The notes beneath the pieces are model-generated. The model saw nothing but the letters and a program-made list of their open reading frames with translations, searched no databases and was not told where the DNA came from. DNA of 37,888 nucleotides from Herpetosiphonaceae bacterium (lineage in GTDB: Bacteria; Chloroflexota; Chloroflexia; Chloroflexales; Kallotenuaceae): positions 1 to 37,888 of the forward strand of contig JACDGP010000047.1 of the NCBI GenBank assembly GCA_013821605.1, given 5' to 3'. Shown piece by piece: positions 16,756-33,256 of the stretch; position 1 is the stretch's first letter; each line of letters begins with the position of its first letter. A program made the translations under genes and the position numbers.

Positions 16756-16891
16756 GCCGCGCAGCATTTAGTTTATTACTAGCACCCAAGCCGCACGTTG
16801 TCCAGAACATGTGCATAATATGTGGCTGCATGGGGACTAGTGGTAAATCCTGCTAAATCAGTTTCATAGCTCGACTGGATAATGCTTAACT

Positions 16892-16922
16892 GAGCCACTA
16901 CAATGGCTTAATCTTTATTTCA
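16892..16922 (+). terminator. Weak candidate terminator after dnaN
   Basis: GAGCCA (16892-16897) and TGGCTT (16904-16909) can form a 6-bp stem with one G-T pair, followed by the T-rich AATCTTTATTT. The stem is short. The rest of the gap 16756-17006 shows no gene. Confidence 0.3.
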
Positions 16923-17006
16923 TAACTGTTTGCTATCCTACACGTGCACGATGCTGCCATGCATGTATTGCATGGACGATGTACGTTAAGGGGAGAGGAG
17001 CGGGTC

Positions 17007-17339
17007 ATGCAGATTGTACGCTATGACCAGGCAAGCGAGCAGCGAGAGATCACAGGCGACTGGCAAGGATGGCTGTACGCCCATGGTTTCCTCCGTATCC
17101 GGCTTGTGCCCGTGCTCGGGCCGTGGCACCGGTTGATGCTGGAAGTATGGAAAGGCGCGGCGGGACGCGAGTTTATGGTTTACCAGCCGCCGGTCGAGGA
17201 TGGAGCCGTGCCGGAGATGTTGTACACGGCTTTACCTGACAGCGACACGCTCGAAGCTTTTCTCCGTGCAACGCGCGGTAGTCTCAAAGAAGCTTTATTT
17301 CAACTCCCGACTCACGCAGCAATGTATGCGCACCACTAA
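17007..17339 (+). CDS. Small protein of unknown function
   Basis: The 110-aa protein is soluble, with Trp-rich beta-like segments (GDWQGWLYAHGFLRIRLVPVLGPWHRLMLEVW) and a helical C-terminus. There is no signal peptide or membrane segment, and no family was recognised. The frame is open from 16944, but GAGAGGAG precedes the ATG at 17007 by about 6 nt and fixes that start. The next small gene starts within 10 nt of its stop, so the pair is likely one transcript. Confidence 0.55.
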   Translation: MQIVRYDQASEQREITGDWQGWLYAHGFLRIRLVPVLGPWHRLMLEVWKGAAGREFMVYQPPVEDGAVPEMLYTALPDSDTLEAFLRATRGSLKEALFQLPTHAAMYAHH

Positions 17340-17345
17340 TTGCCC

Positions 17346-17603
17346 ATGATGAACGAGGCGCAAGCACTACAGTGGACGCTTTCACCAGATGGTACGTGGA
17401 TCTGCGATGCCTCCAACGGTCATGCGCTGCTTCGTCCACTGGCGGGACCACAGGTTGCTATCGGCTACTGCTGGCAAATCGAGATCGAGACTTCGTACTG
17501 TATTCAGCGGACAGTGCGCTGGTTTATTAACGACACTTTCGCCCGGCGGCGCGTCGAGCACGACCTCACGCTGGCCTGTGCAGAAGCCTCCGAAGCGAAG
17601 TGA
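17346..17603 (+). CDS. Small protein of unknown function
   Basis: The product is about 85 aa, soluble, with Trp and Cys residues and a basic stretch FARRRVEHDL near the C-terminus. No family was recognised. The frame begins at a TTG (17340); ATG at 17346 or 17349 is more likely. No good ribosome binding site is visible, so translation may depend on coupling to the preceding gene, whose stop is only a few bases away. It ends 48 nt before the Pho-box-like promoter of the next operon. Confidence 0.4.
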   Translation: MMNEAQALQWTLSPDGTWICDASNGHALLRPLAGPQVAIGYCWQIEIETSYCIQRTVRWFINDTFARRRVEHDLTLACAEASEAK

Positions 17604-17650: not shown

Positions 17651-17705
17651 GTTAACCCCGACTTAACCTTGCGATTACCGCAATATCACGAGCGGTTGGG
17701 ATACT
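17651..17705 (+). promoter_or_regulatory. Pho-box-like tandem repeats and -10 of the acid phosphatase operon
   Basis: Consecutive 11-nt units are GTTAACCCCGA (17651), CTTAACCTTGC (17662), GATTACCGCAA (17673) and a weak TATCACGAGCG (17684-17694). Five nt (GTTGG) and GATACT (17700-17705) follow. The 11-nt spacing of TTAAC-like cores is that of PhoB/PhoP-family binding sites. A start site 6-8 nt after the -10 would fall at the ATG (17713), suggesting a leaderless mRNA. Confidence 0.65.
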
Positions 17706-17712
17706 GCTACCC

Positions 17713-18720
17713 ATGGATAGATCTACGCGTTCGCTCGGGACGATACGAGAATATGGGCGTAACCCCGTGCGCTTTTTGGTGATGGGCGACACCGGCACCG
17801 GCACTCCGGAGCAATACCAGGTAGCAGCAGCTGCGACCTCTATCAGCCGCAACCTTGGCTGTGATTTCATCCTAGGTCTTGGCGACAATATCTACGAATT
17901 CGGCGTCCGAAGTGCTTATGACACTCAGTTTGAGAACAAATTCGAGCAACCGTACCGTGAATTGAATGTGCCCTTCTATTTTGTGTTGGGCAACCATGAT
18001 AATAGCAGTGATTTGCTTGAGGGCGATGGTCGGCAGAACTGCAATGGTAACTACCAGGTCGCATACCATTACCGGAAGGACCGATTAAGCAACAAGTGGC
18101 AGATGCCAGCCCGCTACTATACCTTCCGCTATGGACCGGTCCAGTTCTTCGCACTCGATACCAATCCGCTGATGGGCGTTGACCCGTACTGGCCGGCTGC
18201 ATACAGCGCGGCACAGCGTCTGTGGCTTGAGCAGGCCCTGACCACTAGCACCGCCGCTTGGAAGATCGTGTACGGGCACCATCCTTATCGTTCTAATGGC
18301 TTTCATGGTGATGCCGGCAGCTATGACCAGATGCCGGGCGAAGGGCAGGGCGTTCGCCAGTTTTTGGAGCAAAGCGTGTTAGGCAAAGCCGACCTATATC
18401 TAGCCGGGCATGATCACAATCTGATGTGGTTGACACCTAAGCCAAGCCACGGCAACACCCAATTAGTTATTTGTGGGGCTGGGGGCCGCACGGGGCCTTT
18501 GATCGATCCCCAGCGTAATCCTACCTTTTTTCAGACGAACGATAGCTTGGGCTTTGCCTGGTTCGAAATCGCAGGCCGGACGCTGCACAGCATCTTCTAT
18601 AATGGCGAGGGCAACCAACTCTTCGAGCACACGGTGCTCCAGAGTGAGCCTACAGTCGTTGACATGGGTCATCAGCGGACGCGTTCGCCCTTCCCGGTGA
18701 GCGCCCACCTGCAGAAATGA
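17713..18720 (+). CDS. Purple-acid-phosphatase-like metallophosphoesterase (ACP5/TRAP type)
   Basis: This dimetal phosphoesterase hydrolyses phosphomonoesters or diesters. The 335-aa protein has the family metal ligands in order: GDTG (Asp26), GLGDNIY (Asp58 and Tyr61, the tyrosine being the purple acid phosphatase hallmark), GNHD (Asn94, His95), GHHP (His189) and GHDHN (His233, His235). The order and spacing match tartrate-resistant acid phosphatase. No signal peptide is seen, so a cytoplasmic or membrane-surface role is possible. No ribosome binding site precedes the ATG, which fits the proposed leaderless start. It heads a three-gene operon with overlapping ends and a Pho-box-like promoter. 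In that context it may release phosphate from phospholipid-derived substrates, by analogy with PlcP beside glycolipid synthases; that role is inference. Confidence 0.85.
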   Translation: MDRSTRSLGTIREYGRNPVRFLVMGDTGTGTPEQYQVAAAATSISRNLGCDFILGLGDNIYEFGVRSAYDTQFENKFEQPYRELNVPFYFVLGNHDNSSDLLEGDGRQNCNGNYQVAYHYRKDRLSNKWQMPARYYTFRYGPVQFFALDTNPLMGVDPYWPAAYSAAQRLWLEQALTTSTAAWKIVYGHHPYRSNGFHGDAGSYDQMPGEGQGVRQFLEQSVLGKADLYLAGHDHNLMWLTPKPSHGNTQLVICGAGGRTGPLIDPQRNPTFFQTNDSLGFAWFEIAGRTLHSIFYNGEGNQLFEHTVLQSEPTVVDMGHQRTRSPFPVSAHLQK

Positions 18721-18728
18721 GGCAAAGC

Positions 18729-19340
18729 ATGGAACAGCAAACAGCTGCGATCTGTATCTCGATTTACGGTCGCTGTGAAGCAGACCGAGCGCACTGGAAC
18801 TGGCTGGCCGTCGACGGTGACGAGCAATCGCTCGCCGAAGAGCAGGGCGTGGCGGAGCCCAATCCTGAGGTCGGTGCGAACGAGGCACATGCAATCGCGA
18901 CACTATCAGCCCTGCGTTGGGCTAGGGAACAAGAGCTCCAAGACGTAGTCCTATGCATTGATGATCAGGAGTTTGTGTGCTATTTGACCGGTGAGGCCAC
19001 ACCTTCGCCCTATCTCGCCGTCTTGATCGCCCCAATTCTGCCCTTGGTTGAAGAAGTGAGCGGGAGTGTGGAATGTGTGGCAGCATATGTGCCCACAGTG
19101 CCTGCATTCCACGAACCGGGCGATGATCAAGCGATTGTTGGGGTAACACCGCCGCAGGCGCAGCGCCAAGTTGTGCAGGATGTTGAGCAGTGGCTTGCGG
19201 CATGGCCTACAATTCGGGGTAAACTTGCACCATTGATCGCACTCGACGCCGATGTTCATGCTGTTCCACTGGAAGCATTAGCTCAAGTGGATACATTAAT
19301 CGCAACACTGGCGACGCTGATACCGGAGTCTTCACGATGA
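18729..19340 (+). CDS. RNase H-like-fold protein lacking part of the catalytic set, function unknown
   Basis: The 203-aa protein has an N-terminal half resembling the RNase H/RVT_3 fold. A first strand pair (AAICISIYGRC) is followed by ANEAHAIATLSALRWAREQELQDVVLCIDDQEFVCYL (given in outline), which parallels the 'NNxAEyxALixGLxxA...vxGDSqLV' block of RNase HI-like proteins. The first catalytic Asp (TDGS in RNase HI) is Tyr here and the Glu position is His; only the Asp in IDDQ remains. It is probably not a nuclease. ATG at 18717 overlaps the phosphatase stop, but TGAGG 6-7 nt before ATG 18729 favours the latter. It overlaps the glycosyltransferase gene by 4 nt. The fold assignment is by eye. 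Confidence 0.5.
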   Translation: MEQQTAAICISIYGRCEADRAHWNWLAVDGDEQSLAEEQGVAEPNPEVGANEAHAIATLSALRWAREQELQDVVLCIDDQEFVCYLTGEATPSPYLAVLIAPILPLVEEVSGSVECVAAYVPTVPAFHEPGDDQAIVGVTPPQAQRQVVQDVEQWLAAWPTIRGKLAPLIALDADVHAVPLEALAQVDTLIATLATLIPESSR

Positions 19341-20569
19341 TGATGTCTTTTGTGGTGGCAGTGGGCCTGTTCGTGTGTGTCGTGTTGCTGTGCGTCGTCG
19401 GTATGCTGTGGAGGCAGCGTAAGGACGCGGTACCCGCCATCAAGGAGCCGTCGAACGGTAGTTATTGTGTGTTAATCCTGACTGCTGCGGTTGGTGGTGG
19501 CCATGTGGCGGCCGGCCGGGCACTGCAAGTCGACATCGAGCAGGCGGGTCATCAAGCTATCGTCCGTGATGGTATGCACGATCTCAGTCCGTCGCTCGAT
19601 TGGCTGGTGCGTACAGTCTATGCTAGTCAACTCAAGCATCGTTCTCAGTCGGCAGCCATGATTTTCTGGTTGACCTCGCAGCCGGCGGTCGCGGCTGCTG
19701 TTCGCGCCTTGATCGGCTTTTGTTATGGCTATCGTCTGCTACAGGTAGCTCAGCAGTTGCAGCCGGACATCGTCGTCTCGACCTATCCGCTGGTCACCAG
19801 TGCGCTTGGCTACTTACGTAGGCGAGGAAAGCTAGCCATGCCGGTGGTAGCGCTCATTCCCGATTATGGCGTGCATCCGCTGTGGGTTGCACCCGCGATT
19901 GACCTACATCTCGTAGCCAGCCGCCTTTCGGCCCAACTTGCCGAGCGCGCGGGCGGTCAAGTGCTCGTGGCACGTTTGCCCGTCGCTCCGGCTTATCGAA
20001 GTGCGCTCGTACGGGCCGAGGCGCGGCAACTGCTCGGCTTGCCGCATGAGCCATTTATAGCGCTGATTGTGGGTGGGGCATGGGGCGCCGGGGATCTCGA
20101 AGGGATGACCAGGCATGTAGCTAGGTCGGGCGCATATACGATCGTCGTTACCGGCCATAACCTGGCTTTACGAGACCAATTAGTCACGCGTTTTGCTGCC
20201 GAGTCCAATGTGCATATCTTGGGCTGGACCGAGGAGATGCGGCGACTGATGGCGGCAGCAGACTGTATCCTCCAAAATGCTGGCGGCATGACGTGTTTGG
20301 AGGCGATGGAGGCACGACTGCCGATCGTGCTCTTTGACCCGATCCGCGGACATGGTGAGTTCAATGCCACGATTATGGAACAGGCCAGATTGGCCTCTTG
20401 GCCACGAACAGGTGCAGCACTCGAAGCACTACTCCGTAGCGCGAGGTTGGACAAACGATCACTTCCCGCGCCCCACCGAGAGGCCGCTCCGGCGGCTGCT
20501 ATGTTGATGCTGGCGTTAGCACAAACGAGCTTGTCTGAAGTTGCTCAAGGTAGCTTAACCCTAGCGTAA
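19337..20569 (+). CDS. MGDG-synthase/UgtP-type diacylglycerol glycosyltransferase (GT28)
   Basis: This enzyme probably transfers a sugar from a UDP-sugar to diacylglycerol at the membrane to make glycolipid. The 410-aa protein starts with a single membrane helix (about 4-25). It then has the MGDG_synth N-terminal motif AVGGGHVAAGRAL (51-63), the block VSTYPLVTSALGYLRRRG, VVALIPDYGVHPLWV, and the C-terminal GT28 donor site NAGGMTCLEAMEARLPIVLFDP with GHGEFNA replacing the GQE-x-NA pattern. The related MurG family has a different N-terminus and a narrower role in cell-wall synthesis. The ATG overlaps the previous stop (ATGA), with GGAG 8 nt upstream. Its place behind an acid phosphatase and a Pho-type promoter suggests phospholipid replacement when phosphate is short. 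Confidence 0.8.
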   Translation: MMMSFVVAVGLFVCVVLLCVVGMLWRQRKDAVPAIKEPSNGSYCVLILTAAVGGGHVAAGRALQVDIEQAGHQAIVRDGMHDLSPSLDWLVRTVYASQLKHRSQSAAMIFWLTSQPAVAAAVRALIGFCYGYRLLQVAQQLQPDIVVSTYPLVTSALGYLRRRGKLAMPVVALIPDYGVHPLWVAPAIDLHLVASRLSAQLAERAGGQVLVARLPVAPAYRSALVRAEARQLLGLPHEPFIALIVGGAWGAGDLEGMTRHVARSGAYTIVVTGHNLALRDQLVTRFAAESNVHILGWTEEMRRLMAAADCILQNAGGMTCLEAMEARLPIVLFDPIRGHGEFNATIMEQARLASWPRTGAALEALLRSARLDKRSLPAPHREAAPAAAMLMLALAQTSLSEVAQGSLTLA

Positions 20570-24133: not shown

Positions 24134-26797
24134 TTAGTCGCCATCGCCGGCTGGCGTTTGACGGCTGGTCACCGCATCAGGCAGCGCAGGATAGGGCTTA
24201 TCCGCGCCTTTAACCGCACCCCATAAGATGTGGTTGAGTTCGTCCATGGGCATCCGATCCTCCTGGCTAAAGTCCATCTTCGCCGAGCGCTCTGCCCCGT
24301 AGGCATTCGGTGCGTTCGTCACCATCCGGGTGGTCTCGGCCAATGTGTCATAGGTCCTTAGATCGGGTGTGCGCTGAAACAAGTGCCACATGGGCGTTGC
24401 TACGGCGTCATACTGGCTGAGAGGTCGCAGGCCTACCAGGAGTTCCATAGTGCGGACCATAGCGGCGGTGTCATACAAGGTGTGGTCGACATAGACATAG
24501 CCGCGTGATGTGTAGGGACTGATCACAAGCGACGTCGTGCGATGCGCATCAACATGATCCGGCCCATTCTGCGCATCATCCTCGGTCACAAAGATCGCAG
24601 TACTGCCCCAATATTTGCTCTTGCTGACGATGCTGACCAGATTCCCCACAGCGGCATCGTTCTCGGCAACGAAGGCTTGTGGCGTAAGGCTGGTGGGACT
24701 CGTGCCCGATGTATGGTCGTTCGGCAAGCGCACAATCTCGAGTTGGGGCAAGCTATCGGTCGTGACGAAATTATCGAACTCACGCTGCCACTCGGCGAGG
24801 CGGTCTGCCTCGCGATAACGCATGTCGAAGGTGCGAAACTTGGGATCGTAATGAGCAATTAAGTTCGGAGTGGTGGACGGATTGATATTCATGGGCAGAA
24901 AGCAGAGCACTTGGCCATTCGGGATCGTCATGCCACTGTAGGCATGTGCCACCGGACCTACGCAGGTATCAGCCTGGCTTTCGGGGATCAGTTTGCCGCG
25001 TGAGGCCGGATAGTTCGCGTCGAACTGCACGAACTCCCCGTAGTCACGATAGCTGATGTGGGCCTCAGCGGCCGCGTCCCAGAGGTACCCGCCGGGCGAA
25101 AGATTGATGCTGCTGCCCCCTTCAAAGTCATAGCCACGGTTGCGTCCGTCACCTGGGGAGTAGTCTTGCGGCCACATTTTCTCGTTGTAATCACTGGCAT
25201 TGGCCGAGTTGGCCCAGTTATGGCCGTCGGCACTCACCTCGGCATCAGCATAGAAGTTATCGAGCAGCCCAAAGCGATCGGCCAGAGCATGCAGATTTGG
25301 CGTATTCGCCCGTGGGAAGAGCGTGAGCGATTGGTCGCCGTCACCGACGGAGGCATCACCGAAAACCTGATCGTAGGTGCGGTTTTCCTTGATAATGTAG
25401 ATCACATGCTTGATCGGCGAGGTACCACCGGGACGCGGCACGGGATTGCCACGGCTACGCAGGAGCAGCGATTGGTCGCCCTGATGGTTGTTGCGCATGA
25501 CCTGATTCGTATAGACCTGGAGGCGACCTTTGCCGGGTACTGCGATGGTCGAGAGTGTGCCATGAATCATGCTGCCACTATATTGATCATAGGTGCAATT
25601 GCAGTAGCGATCGTTATAGCCCATGAGCACATCCACGAAGGGCGGGTTCGCCCGCTGGGGACTGGGGAAATAACCGGCGTTATTGGGACCGGCACCGAGC
25701 CCTTTCGCGTTCGTCACAAACAGCGATCCGTTATCAGGGCTCACAGCAACAGACGTCGGGTACCAGGCCGTCGGTATGCGGCCAAGGCGCTGCTCGGGGC
25801 CATTGCGCCCATGCAGGGCGAAGACCATCACTTCGTTGCTGCCTGCATTCGCGACATACAAACGCTGGCCGTCATGGCTAACCGCCAGCCCTTGTGGGCT
25901 GCTGCTAAGCGGAGCATGCGCATAGGGCGCGACGGACAGCAGCCGTAGTTGTTGATTCGTCGTGGTATCGATCACCGAGACGGCGTCGCTGTTGGAGTCG
26001 GCGACGAACAAGAGTTGGTCGGGGCCGAAGATCATGGCCGAGGGATGGCTGCCGACGGTAATGGTGGCCGATACAGTTTTGCTGCCTGTATCGATTACAG
26101 AAACCGTGCCATCGCCCCAGTTCGAGACGTAGACATGCGCGCCATCACCACTGGTGAGCGTCGTGTAGGGATAGTGGCCGACTGGCACGGTGGTGCTGAC
26201 GGTTCGGAGATGAGTATCGATCAGCGCTACGGTGTTACTGATATTATTCGCGACATACAACATGCCGCCATCGGGGCTGACACTTAAGCCAGTCGGAAAC
26301 GGGTTTTCCTTGCCCCTGCCCAGTACGATATCGCCGGTGGGTGTAACCAAGCCGCTCGACAGAACATCATAGGCATGCACGACATTATGACCACCACCGG
26401 AGGCATAGGCCTGATGACCATCGGGGCTGTAGGCAACACCTACGAACACGCTGTCCGGGACCGTATAAGGAATGGTTTGCACCAGACGAGTGGTCGTCGT
26501 ATCGACCACCTGCAAGGATTGAACGCCGGCACCACCATTCGCCACGAGCAGGTGCTGGCCGTCGGGTGCTAGTGCGGAATTTAATGGCAGGTCACCTAAG
26601 GTCGTTTGACGGCCAGCAGGCGTGACGATCCAATTGTTGACGAGGCGTGTGCTTCCGTCGGATCGTGGGCCGGGCCTAGCGTATTGCACCAACGGGACAA
26701 TGGGGCCGAGGATAAGGACGCCGACCAAGAACGCAAAGCGACGATGTAGGTTCAACCAGGATCGGAACTGGCGCAGGACACGAGCAGGTGGCTGCAT
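24134..26797 (-). CDS. Membrane-anchored YVTN beta-propeller plus phosphoesterase (PF04185-type)
   Basis: The 887-aa protein has a cytoplasmic basic start, one membrane helix at about 19-37, and a seven-bladed-propeller-like region (about 45-400). That region is built from repeats of the type 'SPDGxxLYVANxxSNTVxVIDTxTxxVxxTIxVG'. A phosphoesterase domain from about 465 follows: IKHVIYIIKENRTYDQVFGD with the putative Thr nucleophile after ENR, then NFYADAEVSADGHNW and FVTEDDAQNGPDHVDAHRT. The catalytic part faces outside. The substrate (phospholipid or other organophosphate) is not determined. GGGAG lies about 5 nt before the ATG. It is 90 nt downstream of another phosphoesterase gene, with an intercistronic hairpin between, and probably shares that gene's Pho-type promoter. 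Its C-terminal PAGDGD is shared with the 29658-32477 protein, pointing to paralogy. Confidence 0.82.
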   Translation of the reverse strand: MQPPARVLRQFRSWLNLHRRFAFLVGVLILGPIVPLVQYARPGPRSDGSTRLVNNWIVTPAGRQTTLGDLPLNSALAPDGQHLLVANGGAGVQSLQVVDTTTTRLVQTIPYTVPDSVFVGVAYSPDGHQAYASGGGHNVVHAYDVLSSGLVTPTGDIVLGRGKENPFPTGLSVSPDGGMLYVANNISNTVALIDTHLRTVSTTVPVGHYPYTTLTSGDGAHVYVSNWGDGTVSVIDTGSKTVSATITVGSHPSAMIFGPDQLLFVADSNSDAVSVIDTTTNQQLRLLSVAPYAHAPLSSSPQGLAVSHDGQRLYVANAGSNEVMVFALHGRNGPEQRLGRIPTAWYPTSVAVSPDNGSLFVTNAKGLGAGPNNAGYFPSPQRANPPFVDVLMGYNDRYCNCTYDQYSGSMIHGTLSTIAVPGKGRLQVYTNQVMRNNHQGDQSLLLRSRGNPVPRPGGTSPIKHVIYIIKENRTYDQVFGDASVGDGDQSLTLFPRANTPNLHALADRFGLLDNFYADAEVSADGHNWANSANASDYNEKMWPQDYSPGDGRNRGYDFEGGSSINLSPGGYLWDAAAEAHISYRDYGEFVQFDANYPASRGKLIPESQADTCVGPVAHAYSGMTIPNGQVLCFLPMNINPSTTPNLIAHYDPKFRTFDMRYREADRLAEWQREFDNFVTTDSLPQLEIVRLPNDHTSGTSPTSLTPQAFVAENDAAVGNLVSIVSKSKYWGSTAIFVTEDDAQNGPDHVDAHRTTSLVISPYTSRGYVYVDHTLYDTAAMVRTMELLVGLRPLSQYDAVATPMWHLFQRTPDLRTYDTLAETTRMVTNAPNAYGAERSAKMDFSQEDRMPMDELNHILWGAVKGADKPYPALPDAVTSRQTPAGDGD

Positions 26798-26846
26798 GAA
26801 TCTCCCAACCTTTCGCAGTTGCTTGGATTTCTAGCGCATCGTGATA

Positions 26847-26880
26847 GTTGATGGGCTGGATACAGACCCAGCCCGTCAAC
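26847..26880 (-). other. Intercistronic hairpin between the two phosphoesterase genes
   Basis: GTTGATGGGCTGG (26847-26859) and CCAGCCCGTCAAC (26868-26880) pair over 13 bp with one G-T, with an 8-nt loop, just after the stop of the upstream gene. No U-tract follows on either strand. It could attenuate read-through or stabilise the upstream message. Confidence 0.5.
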
Positions 26881-26887
26881 TAGCGGA

Positions 26888-28435
26888 CTACTTGTGGATC
26901 GGCAGCCCGTTGAACGGGTCGAGGAAGAGGGTGGGTGCCTGGCCGCCACCCGTGAAGTCGAAGAGGTGGTCCAGTGTCCCTGCTAGCTGATCAAACGACT
27001 GGTCACCGATGCGACCCAAGCTCCAGTTACCTTCAATGAAGCGCAGGATCGAGCTTTGATCGGTGATGGTGTGGTCGACAAAGTTCGTCTTCGCATAGGG
27101 CGAGATGACCAGCAGCGGCAGGCGTGGCCCGTAGCCACAGCGATCCGGATAGGCACCCGCCTTCGCCGTGCCGCACATGCCCGGGCCCGAGAGCGCATCG
27201 CCATTCGGGTCGTCAGACATGCTGACGATCGGGCTCATCACGTGGTCATACCACCCATCCGAGTCGTCGTAGGCGATGATGACGGCTGTGTCCTTCCAAC
27301 TATTCATGTGCTGTAGGCGGTTGAGCGTGTCGACCAGAAAATGCTGCTCGTCTAAGGGATCCGAATAGCTAGCATGACCATCCTGATACTTAGAGGCCTT
27401 GAGGAAACTGACGGCAGGCATATTGCCTACACTGGCAGCAGCCCAGAAGTCCGACAGGTCATACTGGTGATTGGCCTGATCGGTTTTGCCGATCTTGAAG
27501 ATCGAGCTTGGCGGCAAGTGGCTCGGATTAGCAGTCGACTGATAATATTGGAAGGGCTCGTGGTGTGCGCTATAGTCCGTGACGGTAGCTCCACCAATAT
27601 TCACATGGCTGCTACCGCAGACGATGGTACCGCCGCTGGTTGAGCTCGGCGTGAAGCCGCCCTGGAACCAGCCCCAGGTAATGCCATTGCCGTTCAAGAG
27701 GTCCCCAATATTGCGACCACTTAGGGCAGCCGTGGTCGTTCCCGAGCAGGCATCATAGGCAGGATCGGGATCGCCGATCACCGTCCCGTTCTGGACCTCG
27801 CCTGCAGCTTCCGGCGTGGCACCATGGGTTTGCCCAGAGACCAGATTAAGCGCGCCAGGGGTCGATGGCCCAAACGTGGTACCAAACGAGTTATCGCTCA
27901 TGGCGAAATGCTGAGCATAGTTCCACAGCCCGGTAACGGTGTTACCGTCATAGTAGTCCATGACCTGCGTTTTATCGGTGCATCCGCTGCCACTGGCCGA
28001 CTCGACGAACTTGTCCATGAGGCCGTTGTCGAAGGCCTGCTGCTCGGCGGTGTAGCCGTGATCCTGATCACAGGTCAGTGCCTGGGAGCGGTCAAGGCGC
28101 TGCGGGTTCGCGGCGTTGGGGTTGGCGGTCAGCAGCGCGGCACTTAACCCATTGACCGGCGGCGTGCCCGGCGCTGCGACGAACTTCGGTTCGCCCCCCG
28201 GATTCTGCGCCTTCGGGTACGTACCGAAATAATGATCGAACGAAACGTTTTCCTGAAAGATGACCACAACATGCTTGATCGGGGTTACAGTGTGGGACTG
28301 CGCAGCGACGTAGGGAGCGTCTGGCGCGCTCCGTGTCGCCTGCATGGCCGACGTAGCCAGGGGCGAGGTCGCGAGCGGGGCGGCGAGCCCAACTCCTAAG
28401 GCGAGCAAGGTTGCGACGGTGGTTGAGGCCTTCAT
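26888..28435 (-). CDS. Secreted phosphoesterase, acid phosphatase/phospholipase C type (PF04185)
   Basis: The 515-aa precursor has a signal peptide (about 1-30, MKASTTVATLLALGVGLAAP...). The PF04185 catalytic start TPIKHVVVIFQENVSFDHYF (51-70) has Ser65 after the ENx pattern as the putative nucleophile. Further blocks are CDQDHGYTAEQQAFDNGLMD, GPSTPGALNLVSGQTHG and AYDDSDGWYDHVMSP, the last being the metal-binding DDxxGxxDH region seen in AcpA and non-haemolytic phospholipase C. It lacks the propeller of its neighbours. GGAGGAGG lies 7 nt before the ATG. A Pho-box-like repeat array and -10 sit about 50-100 nt upstream. Whether it is a phosphomonoesterase or a phospholipase C cannot be settled by sequence alone. 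Confidence 0.85.
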   Translation of the reverse strand: MKASTTVATLLALGVGLAAPLATSPLATSAMQATRSAPDAPYVAAQSHTVTPIKHVVVIFQENVSFDHYFGTYPKAQNPGGEPKFVAAPGTPPVNGLSAALLTANPNAANPQRLDRSQALTCDQDHGYTAEQQAFDNGLMDKFVESASGSGCTDKTQVMDYYDGNTVTGLWNYAQHFAMSDNSFGTTFGPSTPGALNLVSGQTHGATPEAAGEVQNGTVIGDPDPAYDACSGTTTAALSGRNIGDLLNGNGITWGWFQGGFTPSSTSGGTIVCGSSHVNIGGATVTDYSAHHEPFQYYQSTANPSHLPPSSIFKIGKTDQANHQYDLSDFWAAASVGNMPAVSFLKASKYQDGHASYSDPLDEQHFLVDTLNRLQHMNSWKDTAVIIAYDDSDGWYDHVMSPIVSMSDDPNGDALSGPGMCGTAKAGAYPDRCGYGPRLPLLVISPYAKTNFVDHTITDQSSILRFIEGNWSLGRIGDQSFDQLAGTLDHLFDFTGGGQAPTLFLDPFNGLPIHK

Positions 28436-28483
28436 GTACCATCCTCCTCCAATGTACCTAGAGAAACTGCGGTCCGAGGAGTA

Positions 28484-28538
28484 ATGGTAGGCGGGTCAGG
28501 TTAACCCCACGTAAATCTCGGGTTAAGGAGGAGCTAAG
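28484..28538 (-). promoter_or_regulatory. Pho-box-like tandem repeats and -10 of the phosphoesterase operon
   Basis: Read on the minus strand, consecutive 11-nt units are CTTAGCTCCTC (28538-28528), CTTAACCCGAG (28527-28517), ATTTACGTGGG (28516-28506) and GTTAACCTGAC (28505-28495). Five nt (CCGCC) and TACCAT (28489-28484) follow. The predicted leader to the ATG at 28435 is about 40 nt. Confidence 0.7.
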
Positions 28539-28579
28539 GAAGGCGAACGAAGCGGGGCACGAAGTGGCCTCGTACCGAC

Positions 28580-28634
28580 GTTTACGGTGGCTTAACGTGA
28601 TTGGTGCGTTCGCTTAATTCCGCACCGCTAGACT
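28580..28634 (+). promoter_or_regulatory. Pho-box-like tandem repeats and -10 of phnZ
   Basis: The 11-nt units are GTTTACGGTGG (28580), CTTAACGTGAT (28591), a poor TGGTGCGTTCG (28602) and CTTAATTCCGC (28613-28623). Five nt (ACCGC) and TAGACT (28629-28634) follow. It shares the 277-bp divergent gap with the array at 28484-28538, in the opposite orientation. Confidence 0.65.
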
Positions 28635-28712
28635 GTATGGTGTCCACGTGCCTGAACTGGAGTTGGGACGAAGTCGTAGAAAGTGCCAAGTAGGATATGT
28701 GGGGAGGAGTTT

Positions 28713-29267
28713 ATGCAAACTAACCCAATCATCAACCAAATCTTCGCGATCTTCGGCGCAACCGGGGATGCAACATATATTGGCGAACCGGTCTCGCTGA
28801 GCGAGCACATGCTACAGACCGCCTATGCTGCCGAGCAAGATTGGGCAGGTGCCGCCTTGATCGCTGCCGCCCTGCTCCACGATTTTGGGCATCTCATCCA
28901 TGATCTACCGGAGGATGCAGCGGAGCATGGTATCGACACCGTCCATGAGCAGGCCGGTGCGGAGTTTCTTGAGCCGTACTTTTTGTCGTCTGTTACCGAG
29001 CCAACTCGTCTGCATGTAGCGGCTAAACGCTATCTTTGTGCCATCGATTCCGTTTACCTAGCATCGCTGTCGCCGGCCTCCATATTAAGCCTTGAACTGC
29101 AGGGTGGTCCATTCAACGAGGCTGAGGTGCGAGCCTTTGAAGCACTGCCGTACGCACAGGACGCGGTGCAACTGCGACGTTATGACGACAGCGCCAAGGA
29201 AGCAGGTGCGTGGACCCCAGGGCTTGAACACTTCCAACCCTACCTAGAACAAGCACTCCGAGCTTAA
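28713..29267 (+). CDS. phnZ: PhnZ-like HD-domain diiron oxygenase (phosphonate C-P cleavage)
   Basis: Known PhnZ cleaves 2-amino-1-hydroxyethylphosphonate with O2 to glycine and phosphate, using a mixed-valent diiron site. The 184-aa protein matches the 'phosphonate degradation-associated HDIG' group. It has Tyr22 and Glu25 in TYIGEPVS (the mobile Tyr/Glu pair of PhnZ), and iron ligands His32, His56-Asp57 (LLHDFGH), His78 (HEQAG), His101 (LHVAAKRYLCA) and Asp158 or Asp159 (RRYDDSAK). The block SPASILSLELQGGPFNEAEV is also typical. A GTG start at 28683 is possible, but GGGGAGG 5 nt before ATG 28713 decides. phnY, which makes its usual substrate, is not in the window. The Pho-box-like promoter agrees with use of phosphonate as a phosphate source. 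Confidence 0.85.
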   Translation: MQTNPIINQIFAIFGATGDATYIGEPVSLSEHMLQTAYAAEQDWAGAALIAAALLHDFGHLIHDLPEDAAEHGIDTVHEQAGAEFLEPYFLSSVTEPTRLHVAAKRYLCAIDSVYLASLSPASILSLELQGGPFNEAEVRAFEALPYAQDAVQLRRYDDSAKEAGAWTPGLEHFQPYLEQALRA

Positions 29268-29488
29268 TCAGGACTGACACGAGCCAGATCACAGACTGCT
29301 GCCGCCGTCTCAACTTGTCGTGGAGTCGGCAGAGTTGGCAGGATCTGTGTGAGGAGTGTGGTCAGGGTATCCAAGAAGCGAAGATCATCCTCACCATGGC
29401 GGCGTGGATGGAATGGACGTTGACCCTTATCACCTGATGGCATACCCATACCCTCGGGCTGGTCATGCGTCGTCTTGACACGCTCCAT
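29264..29488 (-). CDS. Small hydrophilic protein of unknown function
   Basis: The 74-aa protein has a basic/polar N-terminal half (HPRRHGEDDLRF) and a Thr/Leu/Pro-rich helix-like C-terminal half (TLTTLLTQILPTLPTPRQ). No family was recognised. The case for a real gene is a strong GGAGGAG 5 nt before the ATG and a -10-like TATACT at 29532-29527. It ends tail-to-tail with phnZ, the two TAA stop codons overlapping, and lies divergently from the next phosphoesterase gene. Confidence 0.5.
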   Translation of the reverse strand: MERVKTTHDQPEGMGMPSGDKGQRPFHPRRHGEDDLRFLDTLTTLLTQILPTLPTPRQVETAAAVCDLARVSPD

Positions 29489-29551
29489 GAAAACTCCTCC
29501 ACTACATCAGTCAAACTCTATGTACAGTATAGCAAGAAGAAAACCAAGATG

Positions 29552-29617
29552 CTTAATACGAGCTTAATCACTCCTGCTTCAAAGTATGTTAGCTGATTAA
29601 TCACTTAGCAAGAGAAT
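29552..29617 (+). promoter_or_regulatory. Pho-box-like tandem repeats upstream of the third phosphoesterase
   Basis: The 11-nt units are CTTAATACGAG (29552), CTTAATCACTC (29563), a poor CTGCTTCAAAG (29574), a poor TATGTTAGCTG (29585) and ATTAATCACTT (29596-29606). Five nt (AGCAA) and GAGAAT (29612-29617) follow. An alternative -10 is TATGTT at 29585-29590, directly behind the third unit. Confidence 0.55.
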
Positions 29618-29657
29618 GAAGAAGCTTCAATCACCCCCTACAGCAGGAGGGAAGGTC

Positions 29658-32477
29658 ATGAGACGGATGTCCGCTCGACTAACGATGGTTGCACTCACGA
29701 CGATGCTGCTGGCACCAATGGTGACGGGTGCCAGCAGCCCGGGACTAACGCCAGCGGACGCCGCTGCCTGCGCTGCCCCAGCGGAATATCAGGCACCGGC
29801 GGGGACAGCCGAGACCCAGATCAACAAGGACGGCCAGACCGTGATCCCCAATGGACGGTTCGTCACTCCGGCAGGAGTCAATGTCACCGTGGCGCCGCAT
29901 CCCTTTGGGCTCACCATCTCCCCCAACGGCAAGCAGCTGGTGAGTGCCAACAGTGGCACAGCCCCCTTTTCGATCTCGGTTGTATCACAGCCCGACAGTT
30001 CCAGGCCCAGGGTGCAGCAAATCCCTCCCGGCCCGAATACTGACCCTGCCGTGCTCGATGCAGTCTTTATGGGGGTGGCCATCGCCCGCGATAATCGCAC
30101 GCTGTATGTTTCGGGCGGCAATGATGGCAACATCGTGATCTTTGACCTATCGACCGGAACTCGTACGGCAGCCATTGACCTAAACGTGCCGGCTGCGGGC
30201 CGCAACTGGACCGAGAGCTATATCGGCGACATCAAGCTATCTCCAGACGGTTTGACCTTATGGGCCATCGATCAAGCGAACTTCCGGCTGGTCGCGGTTG
30301 ATGTTGCCACCAAGACGGTCACCAAAGTGGCTCCCGCCGGTCGATATCCATTCGGTCTGGCAATCACGCCTGACAATAAGACGGCGTATGTAGCGAATGT
30401 CGGTATGTACCAGTATTCATTCGTGAATGGCTTCGATCCCAATAACCCGACGGCTACCGGGCTCGCGTTCCCACCCTTCGCTCAGGGTAGCGCGGCTGCA
30501 CGCTATGGCACAATCGTTGAGGGTAAGACGGTGCCCGGTTTGGGGAGCCCAAATGATCCGGCAAGCTTCAGCGTTTGGGCGATTGACCTCGCCAGCGCTC
30601 AGCCGGTCGCTAAGCTCAAGACCGGCCCGTTGGTTGGCGAATTGGTCAAAGGTATCCCCGCCGTCGGCGGCTCGAGTCCAAACTCAGTGGTGACTGATGG
30701 ACGCCGCGTCTATGTTTCCAATAACCACAGCGACAGCGTCACGGTGATCGACGTCATGACGAACCGGGTGGTCAGCCAAGTACCGCTTCGCCCGGCAGGC
30801 GATGCCAATCAATTGCGCGGTACCATGCCCTTCGGCGTTGCTCTCAGCCCCGACAACCAGACCTTGTTCGTCGCGGAATCGGGTCTTAATGCCGTAGCCG
30901 TGATCGACACCCCCTCACTCGCCGTGCTGGGTCGCATTCCGGTCGGCTGGTTTCCTGCAAAGGTCGCGGTCGCCCCTGATGGCCAACATTTATACGTCAG
31001 CAATGCCAAAGGCTATGGTGCGGGGCCAAACGGGGGTGCTCATTTTGTGCCGGGACCGGAAGGTACCTATATCGGCCAGATTCAGAAGGGCACGATCTCA
31101 GCCATCGAACTGCCCGACTTCCACAGTGCAGCCGGTCGCGCACAACTACAGACCTGGAGCGAACAGGTACTCAAGAACAACGTGGTGAAGACAGCCGCCG
31201 CAGGTGCCACGCCACCAAGCGCGGTGTCAGGCCAGCGTGGGAGCTGCCCGATCCAGCATGTCATTTTTGTCACCAAAGAGAATCGCACCTACGACGAGGT
31301 GTTTGGCGATCTGGGGCAGGTAGGAAACCGCACCGTCAATGGTGACCCAACACTGGCACGCTACGGTCAGAAGGTTACGCCTAACCACCATGCCCTGGCG
31401 CGCCGCTTCGCAAGCAGCGACAACTTCTACGTCGACTCGGACGTATCGGCGGATGGCCATCGTTGGTTGGTCGGCGTCGCGCCCGATGAGTTCGTAGAAA
31501 CCAGTTGGCCGGCCTCCTATGGTGGGCGGCGTAATTTTAGCTATGACACGTCAGCCAACGCAGCGCCGGGACGCCGGGGCTTCACCGAGTCGAACTCGGC
31601 ACTAGCGCCGGAAGAATATCCGGAACTCGGTTCGATCTGGAACAACTTCGCGCGTAATAACATCAGCTTTTATAACTATGGCGAAGGCTTCGAGTTCGCC
31701 GGCATCTTCGAGAACGCAGGCTATGAGCCGACCGGGGCGCGCCTACCGGTGAATGTACCAATGCCGGACCCCTTGTTTGATCGCACCGACCGGAATTTTC
31801 CAACCTTTAACACGACCATCCAGGATCAGTATCGGGTCGATGAATTTGCGCGCGACTTCCAGCAGCGTTTTGTGGCCGGCGGTGAACAGCTGCCGCAGTA
31901 TATTAACTTGTATCTGCCACAAGATCACACGGCCAGCCCCAACCCAGCGCTAGGCTATCCCTATACGTCATCCTACGTCGCCGACAACGATCTCGCCTTG
32001 GGACGCGTCATCGATCTTGTTAGCCACTCCAAATACTGGGGATCGACGGCGATATTTGTTACAGAGGACGATGCCCAAAGCGGTGTTGATCATGTGGATG
32101 CGCATCGCTCATTGCTGTTAGTCATAAGCCCGTGGACCAAGCAAGCCTATGTCTCTGCCCAACATAGCTCGATCGTCTCGATCATCAAAACGATCAACGA
32201 ATTCACCGGTGCACCGCCGCTCAGTCTCTACGACGACTTCGCGACCGACCTGCGCGATACCTTCGACTTCCAGCAGCAGCCGAACCTCACGCCCTATGTT
32301 GCCCTGCCGGAAGATCCAACGATCTTCAACCCGGGTCCGCGCCAGCTCGGTCATTTGACAGCCGAACAGCTGCGCGGCGGTGCGAAGATTGACGACCCCC
32401 AGGACATGGTCAAACAGCACCATCAAGCGTTTGATGTGCCAGCGACGGCCGTACCAGCCGGCGATGGCGACGATTAA
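29658..32477 (+). CDS. Secreted YVTN beta-propeller plus phosphoesterase (PF04185-type)
   Basis: The 939-aa precursor begins with a signal peptide (MRRMSARLTMVALTTMLLAP...). It has a beta-propeller region (about 50-460) with repeats such as SPNGKQLVSANSG, TPDNKTAYVANVG, DGRRVYVSNNHSDSVTVIDV and APDGQHLYVSNAKGYG. A catalytic domain from about 540 follows: IQHVIFVTKENRTYDEVFGD, NFYVDSDVSADGHRW, YLPQDHT and FVTEDDAQSGVDHVDAHRS. Domain order and C-terminal PAGDGD match the 24134-26797 protein, but this one appears fully secreted rather than anchored. The frame is open from 29616, but GGAGG 7 nt before ATG 29658, plus the signal peptide, fixes the start. The upstream 11-nt repeats suggest phosphate control. 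Confidence 0.85.
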   Translation: MRRMSARLTMVALTTMLLAPMVTGASSPGLTPADAAACAAPAEYQAPAGTAETQINKDGQTVIPNGRFVTPAGVNVTVAPHPFGLTISPNGKQLVSANSGTAPFSISVVSQPDSSRPRVQQIPPGPNTDPAVLDAVFMGVAIARDNRTLYVSGGNDGNIVIFDLSTGTRTAAIDLNVPAAGRNWTESYIGDIKLSPDGLTLWAIDQANFRLVAVDVATKTVTKVAPAGRYPFGLAITPDNKTAYVANVGMYQYSFVNGFDPNNPTATGLAFPPFAQGSAAARYGTIVEGKTVPGLGSPNDPASFSVWAIDLASAQPVAKLKTGPLVGELVKGIPAVGGSSPNSVVTDGRRVYVSNNHSDSVTVIDVMTNRVVSQVPLRPAGDANQLRGTMPFGVALSPDNQTLFVAESGLNAVAVIDTPSLAVLGRIPVGWFPAKVAVAPDGQHLYVSNAKGYGAGPNGGAHFVPGPEGTYIGQIQKGTISAIELPDFHSAAGRAQLQTWSEQVLKNNVVKTAAAGATPPSAVSGQRGSCPIQHVIFVTKENRTYDEVFGDLGQVGNRTVNGDPTLARYGQKVTPNHHALARRFASSDNFYVDSDVSADGHRWLVGVAPDEFVETSWPASYGGRRNFSYDTSANAAPGRRGFTESNSALAPEEYPELGSIWNNFARNNISFYNYGEGFEFAGIFENAGYEPTGARLPVNVPMPDPLFDRTDRNFPTFNTTIQDQYRVDEFARDFQQRFVAGGEQLPQYINLYLPQDHTASPNPALGYPYTSSYVADNDLALGRVIDLVSHSKYWGSTAIFVTEDDAQSGVDHVDAHRSLLLVISPWTKQAYVSAQHSSIVSIIKTINEFTGAPPLSLYDDFATDLRDTFDFQQQPNLTPYVALPEDPTIFNPGPRQLGHLTAEQLRGGAKIDDPQDMVKQHHQAFDVPATAVPAGDGDD

Positions 32478-32539: not shown

Positions 32540-33256
32540 CTATGGTTGCGGTGGAGATGCAGAAAGTGGGGCGGCTTCTTGAAAGCGATAGCCAATCCCG
32601 CGCACGGTGGTGAGCAACTGCGGCTGGCCGGGATCATGTTCAAGCTTTTCGCGCAACCAGCGGATGTGCACATCAACCGTGCGTGAGTCGCCCATAAAAT
32701 CATAGCCCCAGACGCGCTGGAGCAGCAGATCACGGGACAATGCCATGCCTTGATGGCGCATGAGGCAGGTCAATAGATCAAACTCTTTAGCCGATAGGGC
32801 AACTTCCTCGCTTCCACACCATACCCGTCGCGAACCGGTATCCACCTTGAGGCCGCCGCTTTGTAATACTTCGCGCGGGACCGTGCTACCTTCTAGTTGG
32901 CCACGCCGCAGGATTGCTCGTACACGGGCTAGTAGTTCACCCAGACTAAAGGGCTTGACCACATAATCATCCGCGCCAAGCTCCAAGCCGGCGATGCGGT
33001 CTACCTCGTCTTGCCGGGCAGATAGCATAATGATCGGCACGCCCGACTCACCCCGTAGGATACGGCACACCGAAAAGCCATCAAGACGTGGGAGCATGAC
33101 ATCGAGCAGGACGAGGTCCGGATGTTCACGGCGTGCCAGCTCCAACGCTTGTGCACCATCTCCAGCGATCACGACGGTGTGGCCCTCGCGTTCCAGGTTA
33201 TAGCGTAGTGTTTCAGCGAGTATCGCTTCGTCTTCGACCAATAAGATCGTTGTCAT
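32540..33256 (-). CDS. OmpR/PhoB-family response regulator, probable phosphate regulator
   Basis: The 238-aa DNA-binding response regulator has a receiver domain with acidic pocket Glu8-Asp9-Glu10, phospho-acceptor Asp52 (LLDVMLPRLDG), Ser79 and Lys101 (DDYVVKPFS). The C-terminal winged helix contains the OmpR-type block LSAKEFDLLTCLMRH, WGYDFMGDSRTVDVHIRWLR and TTVRGIGYRF. Overall it reads most like the RegX3/PhoP/PhoB branch, which controls phosphate genes. No histidine kinase or PhoU gene is adjacent. The ATG has no clear ribosome binding site. The promoter carries the same 11-nt repeat array as four nearby operons, suggesting that it controls itself and them; this link is inference. Confidence 0.85.
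   Translation of the reverse strand: MTTILLVEDEAILAETLRYNLEREGHTVVIAGDGAQALELARREHPDLVLLDVMLPRLDGFSVCRILRGESGVPIIMLSARQDEVDRIAGLELGADDYVVKPFSLGELLARVRAILRRGQLEGSTVPREVLQSGGLKVDTGSRRVWCGSEEVALSAKEFDLLTCLMRHQGMALSRDLLLQRVWGYDFMGDSRTVDVHIRWLREKLEHDPGQPQLLTTVRGIGYRFQEAAPLSASPPQP

Follow-up and report, generated by a model that had tools for sequence, protein, structure and literature searches.

Does a three-gene locus of a Herpetosiphonaceae genome, in which genes for a phosphatase and a glycosyltransferase follow a Pho-type promoter, exchange phospholipid for glycolipid during phosphate limitation, and does it do so with enzymes other than those of the known systems? In Proteobacteria, such an exchange is carried out by PlcP and Agt, a phosphatase and a transferase encoded by one Pho-controlled operon (PMC4796936, PMC8528852, PMC9239053). 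The locus resembles PlcP–Agt in having a Pho box, in a gene order that puts a phosphatase of the calcineurin-like superfamily ahead of the glycosyltransferase within one operon, and in a presumed cytoplasmic site of action. It differs in that the phosphatase is of the purple-acid/tartrate-resistant type and not PlcP, the transferase has the PF06925/MGD1 fold and is not a GT4-type Agt, and the two genes are separated by an orphan. We put the probability that the locus is a Pho-controlled lipid-remodeling module, working like PlcP–Agt with neither of its enzymes, at roughly 45%; the lipid step is the presumed part of this reading. If it is true, unrelated enzymes have been assembled on at least two occasions to swap phospholipid for glycolipid when phosphate is short, and a survey relying on PlcP only would miss such swaps in Chloroflexota and Actinomycetota.

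Operon layout and Pho-type promoter

The window, i.e., the whole stretch of DNA that was analyzed, is an entire contig of 37,888 bases, belonging to a genome of 5.88 Mb that is 99.6% complete. Positions 17713–20569 are a genuine three-gene operon (Table 1). The spacing given by the sequence-only reading is correct: all ORFs are on the forward strand, the first two genes are 8 nt apart, and the second and third overlap by 4 nt through a shared ATGA. The sequence TGAGG lies 8 nt upstream of the gene 2 ATG, and another possible start is an in-frame ATG at 18717, from which gene 2 would share 4 nt with gene 1. Coding scores mark each of the three genes as coding in its own frame only. A neighborhood survey, which the same reading had proposed, covered the same family and the other loci of the transferase subfamily and recovered the triplet from no other genome searched; the linkage of the triplet as such is therefore not conserved.

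Table 1. Positions of the operon and promoter features in the window.
Feature	Position	Strand	Description
Pho-type array	17651..17694	+	Four 11-bp units: GTTAACCCCGA CTTAACCTTGC GATTACCGCAA TATCACGAGCG; the fourth is weak
Putative −10	17700..17705	+	GATACT; presumed because TANNNT is spaced likewise at further arrays of the genome, e.g., those of pstS and PAP2
Gene 1	17713..18720	+	Putative metallophosphatase of the purple-acid/TRAP type, 335 aa; no signal peptide
Gene 2	18729..19340	+	Orphan protein (by sequence searches), 203 aa; alternative start 18717
Gene 3	19337..20569	+	Predicted membrane-anchored GT-B glycosyltransferase, "GHG" subfamily (PF06925), 410 aa
N-terminal membrane helix of gene 3 product	19352..19408	+	Predicted, about residues 6–24

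The stretch upstream of the triplet reads GTTAACCccgaCTTAACCttgcGATTACCgcaaTATCACG. Its array, made of CTTAACCT-like boxes, matches the SphR/PhoB form and shares this form with the pst genes; in the cyanobacterial SphR box, 8-bp CTTAACCT repeats stand in tandem, separated by linkers of 3 bp (PMC1906773). Like arrays precede five other genes of the same genome: pstS, a PAP2-like gene that directly precedes the pst operon, and the genes for an acid phosphatase (profile score above the curated cut-off), a vWA/binding protein, and a CAP-domain secreted protein. The claim that a Pho-type array precedes the operon is borne out in two ways: the exact core TTAACC-N5-TTAACC has a single occurrence in the 5.88-Mb genome, at 17652, and a matrix trained on those five promoters, all of them outside the window, places the triplet promoter at the top of all window positions (score 23.2, vs. 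19.4 for the best of 60 Markov windows). The next distinct window site under this matrix is the promoter of the phosphoesterase gene at 26888–28435.

The putative −10 lies 5 nt past the fourth unit and 7 nt ahead of the gene 1 ATG, and the triplet mRNA is possibly leaderless. A TANNNT is likewise found 5 nt past the fourth unit at pstS, the PAP2-like gene, the vWA gene, the 26888 phosphoesterase gene, and an array at 16885, with the register of some arrays set by eye; the CAP gene does not fit this spacing. Since a strict three-unit Pho pattern showed no genome-wide enrichment over a reversed control, our argument is based on the matrix and on how the −10 is spaced. The Pho arrays of the genome are to be read as a sample of the regulon and not as a count. 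Judged by these motifs, Pho control of the triplet is very likely.

Other phosphate-related features lie nearby. The array at 16885–16939 (CTTAACT..CTTAATC, followed by TATCCT, the −10 found at the genome's pstS) precedes two small same-strand ORFs (16944–17603) directly upstream of the triplet. Three PF04185 phosphoesterase genes, two of them fused to β-propellers, occupy 24134–32477, and the one at 26888–28435 has a four-unit Pho array on the reverse strand at about 28538–28500; because this cluster and the triplet lie together, the contig has the appearance of a phosphate-scavenging island. An OmpR-family response regulator is encoded at 32540–33256, with no sensor kinase identified beside it; it scores 235 bits against the PhoB model (cut-off 296) and is closer to the RpaB, MtrA, and YycF models.

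The three encoded proteins

The gene 1 product matches PF00149 (1.8e-16), and its closest solved relatives are purple/tartrate-resistant acid phosphatases (uteroferrin, 1ute, 1e-21), with similarity along nearly the whole chain, in agreement with the earlier assignment of this phosphoesterase to the purple-acid type rather than to PlcP. Alignment with 1ute places all seven metal ligands in the motifs GDxG, GDNxY, GNHD, GHxP, and GHDH, and the GDNxY tyrosine is kept. Unlike uteroferrin, the protein has no signal peptide: only 24 residues, with no hydrophobic stretch, lie ahead of the first motif, and the open frame upstream of the gene extends for at most 19 codons and contains no ATG, GTG, or TTG. 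Intact Chloroflexia relatives (two partial relatives were set aside in this comparison) have at least 46 residues ahead of the first motif, and in most of them this part includes a signal peptide or lipobox. Because it lacks a signal peptide, unlike its relatives in the class, the gene 1 phosphatase is probably cytoplasmic. Purple acid phosphatases act mainly on phosphomonoesters and soluble substrates, over a broad range; as these enzymes are mainly monoesterases, gene 1 would not directly replace the phospholipase C step.

The gene 2 protein is an orphan as judged by sequence searches: 158 genomes of Chloroflexia, 400 of Chloroflexota, and viral contigs contained no relative at E 0.001, and plasmids contained none in a search up to E 1. 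It had been labeled RNase H-like, a description that is not supported: the match to RVT_3 is confined to one stretch and reaches 13.7 and 15.2 bits (E 0.02–0.06) against a Pfam cut-off of 21.6, which is no stronger than the match to the unrelated DUF6109, and a PDB sequence search retrieved no RNase H. By eye, the position of the first catalytic Asp of RNase H reads Tyr. A single-sequence AlphaFold model (pLDDT 38.5) was unusable. We also considered gene 2 as a detached version of the C-terminal domain that is fused to other GHG enzymes, and found no similarity.

The gene 3 product matches PF06925 (64.9 bits, cut-off 25; 1.2e-17) and scores 133.5 bits against the UgtP equivalog model (cut-off 500). 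Sequence searches place it nearest to a diacylglycerol glucosyltransferase and AtMGD1, and AlphaFold, given nine sequences, yielded a model (pLDDT 87.6) that is nearest to AtMGD1 (4wyi; Z 28.7, 307 residues, 3.1 Å), followed by MurG (Z 24.7). In MGD1, H155 is the catalytic base (PMC7419546). Its counterpart in gene 3 is H56, within GGGH, which is invariant in the subfamily. In the C-terminal, donor half of the protein, QNAGG replaces TK-GG and GHG replaces GQE. These changes are common, with small variants, to homologs from Rubrobacteraceae, Acidimicrobiia, and Thermomicrobia-type genomes; the usual motifs are kept in MGD1, in the solved diacylglycerol glucosyltransferase 9wde, and in the genome's own two paralogs. 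Gene 3 shares fold, GGGH histidine, PF06925, and membrane association with MGD1 and the processive, UgtP-type enzyme 9wde, and differs from them in the two motifs and in a true N-terminal membrane helix, as predicted. From sequence and structural model, we regard gene 3 as an MGD1-fold membrane glycosyltransferase of an uncharacterized "GHG" subfamily. The earlier placement in the MGDG-synthase family is right as to PF06925, the fold, and the catalytic histidine, but the enzyme is not a plain MGDG synthase, because TK-GG and GQE are both replaced and most relatives pair with a polysaccharide deacetylase. A transferase paralog with the canonical motifs (TKAGG/GQE; L078, 5852–8377) is convergent to a gene for a PF04185 phosphoesterase with a TAT signal.

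The GHG subfamily and its gene neighborhoods

The GHG subfamily forms one clade in the tree (support 100/100), and represents an uncharacterized transferase group with altered active-site motifs in Rubrobacteraceae, Acidimicrobiia, and Thermomicrobia-type genomes, usually with an adjoining deacetylase. A polysaccharide deacetylase motif occurs within 2.5 kb at 25 of the 43 subfamily loci, in many members the transferase continues into a fused domain that looks like a degenerate polysaccharide deacetylase, and at several loci an EamA-like membrane protein is encoded downstream of the transferase. A conserved and apparently undescribed module, comprising a deacetylase-fused transferase, an intact deacetylase, and an EamA-like protein, is found at L014, L117–L119, L122–L127, and L137–L152.

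The sister group of the gene 3 transferase consists of two Rubrobacteraceae enzymes (L121 and L120), with support of 98/85 in the full tree and 89/82 in the subfamily tree; this is moderate support, the grouping being starred in just one of the two trees. Both sisters adjoin a metallophosphoesterase gene, in one case overlapping on the same strand and in the other divergent by 53 bp, and these two are the only metallophosphoesterase-like ORFs among 479 ORFs in 50 loci. Their products (456–476 aa) share 57% identity, and predictions give them one or two membrane segments; BLAST revealed no relation to the gene 1 product, with which they have only the superfamily in common. Like gene 3, the sister transferases have neither a deacetylase neighbor nor a fused domain. 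Unlike the triplet, the Rubrobacteraceae pairs have a different, membrane-segmented phosphatase and no middle gene, and no Pho arrays of the window genome's kind were seen at them. As the closest transferase relatives also adjoin a metallophosphoesterase, the link between phosphatase and transferase has comparative support; the two Rubrobacteraceae cases share ancestry, so that they and the window amount to two observations, not three. We found no earlier description of the Rubrobacteraceae metallophosphoesterase–transferase pair, and literature searches returned no paper linking Chloroflexus to transferases of the MGDG type, nor any that joins glucosaminyl lipids to polysaccharide deacetylase.

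Proposed lipid remodeling and competing explanations

In the lipid-remodeling reading, a regulator of the PhoB/SphR type would bind the 11-bp array and recruit polymerase to the −10 at 17700, as suggested by motif and geometry. The gene 1 phosphatase, acting at the membrane's inner face, would then dephosphorylate a lipid phosphate and so free phosphate; since purple acid phosphatases mainly act on monoesters, its lipid substrate is likely phosphatidic acid, and the likeliest reaction would be the conversion of phosphatidic acid to diacylglycerol. The gene 3 transferase would add a sugar from a nucleotide sugar onto the freed hydroxyl, donor and acceptor both being presumed. Overall, lipid flux would shift away from phospholipid and toward phosphate-free glycolipid, and this would likely take new lipid out of phospholipid synthesis instead of breaking down old lipid. 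For the gene 2 protein, a part in coupling or regulation can only be guessed at. Several findings count against the lipid reading: the genome's two canonical-motif paralogs could make glycolipids anyway, gene 3 lacks the usual motifs, a deacetylase is present at 25 of the 43 subfamily loci, and the triplet is not conserved. The preference of purple acid phosphatases for monoesters and soluble substrates also speaks against it, as do the starring of the Rubrobacteraceae grouping in a single tree and the fact that the phosphatases there are homologous to gene 1 at the superfamily level only.

The sequence-only reading had taken the locus for an independently assembled version of the PlcP–Agt strategy. 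Of this proposal, the Pho promoter and the pairing of phosphatase with transferase survive, the pairing being strengthened by the Rubrobacteraceae cases; the MGDG-synthase label is weakened, and the RNase H-like middle component is not supported. In the form that we retain, and advance tentatively, a cytoplasmic purple acid phosphatase would feed a GHG transferase under Pho control, with an orphan partner, and the transferase lineage would have recruited an unrelated membrane metallophosphoesterase in Rubrobacteraceae.

The main rival to lipid remodeling, suggested by the subfamily neighborhoods and motifs, is that the product belongs to the envelope. Here, the transferase would make a lipid-linked, possibly amino-sugar, envelope glycan or glycolipid rather than a bulk membrane lipid, the operon would substitute a phosphate-free envelope component for a phosphate-rich one, and the phosphatase would supply or recycle a lipid phosphate, for instance that of polyprenol or diacylglycerol. 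The nearby deacetylases, the many fused deacetylase domains, and the EamA-like proteins all fit this explanation, as do the altered gene 3 motifs, with their hint of another donor, and the second-nearest fold, that of MurG, a UDP-GlcNAc user. However, it is precisely the gene 3 enzyme and its two closest relatives that are without deacetylase and fused domain, and we consider the envelope explanation unlikely.

Alternatively, the phosphatase could be a plain intracellular scavenger of soluble phosphomonoesters, with the transferase under the same promoter either by coincidence or to serve the envelope in some unrelated way, and no substrate passed between them. Such a role would suit the broad phosphomonoesterase range typical of purple acid phosphatases, the lack of conservation of the triplet, and the company of three more phosphoesterase genes in the window, one with its own array. 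Yet genes overlap within the one operon, and the closest transferase relatives again adjoin a metallophosphoesterase; we hold this explanation to be improbable. That gene 2 encodes an RNase H-like nuclease, through which the operon would tie nucleic acid turnover to phosphate hunger, is very improbable, as its weak RVT_3 match is offset by the sub-threshold score, the similar match to DUF6109, the PDB search, the Tyr at the catalytic position, and an unusable model.

At L102 (13919–14839), the gene just ahead of the pst operon encodes a PAP2-type phosphatase and has a Pho array of four units; it could provide another Pho-controlled source of diacylglycerol.
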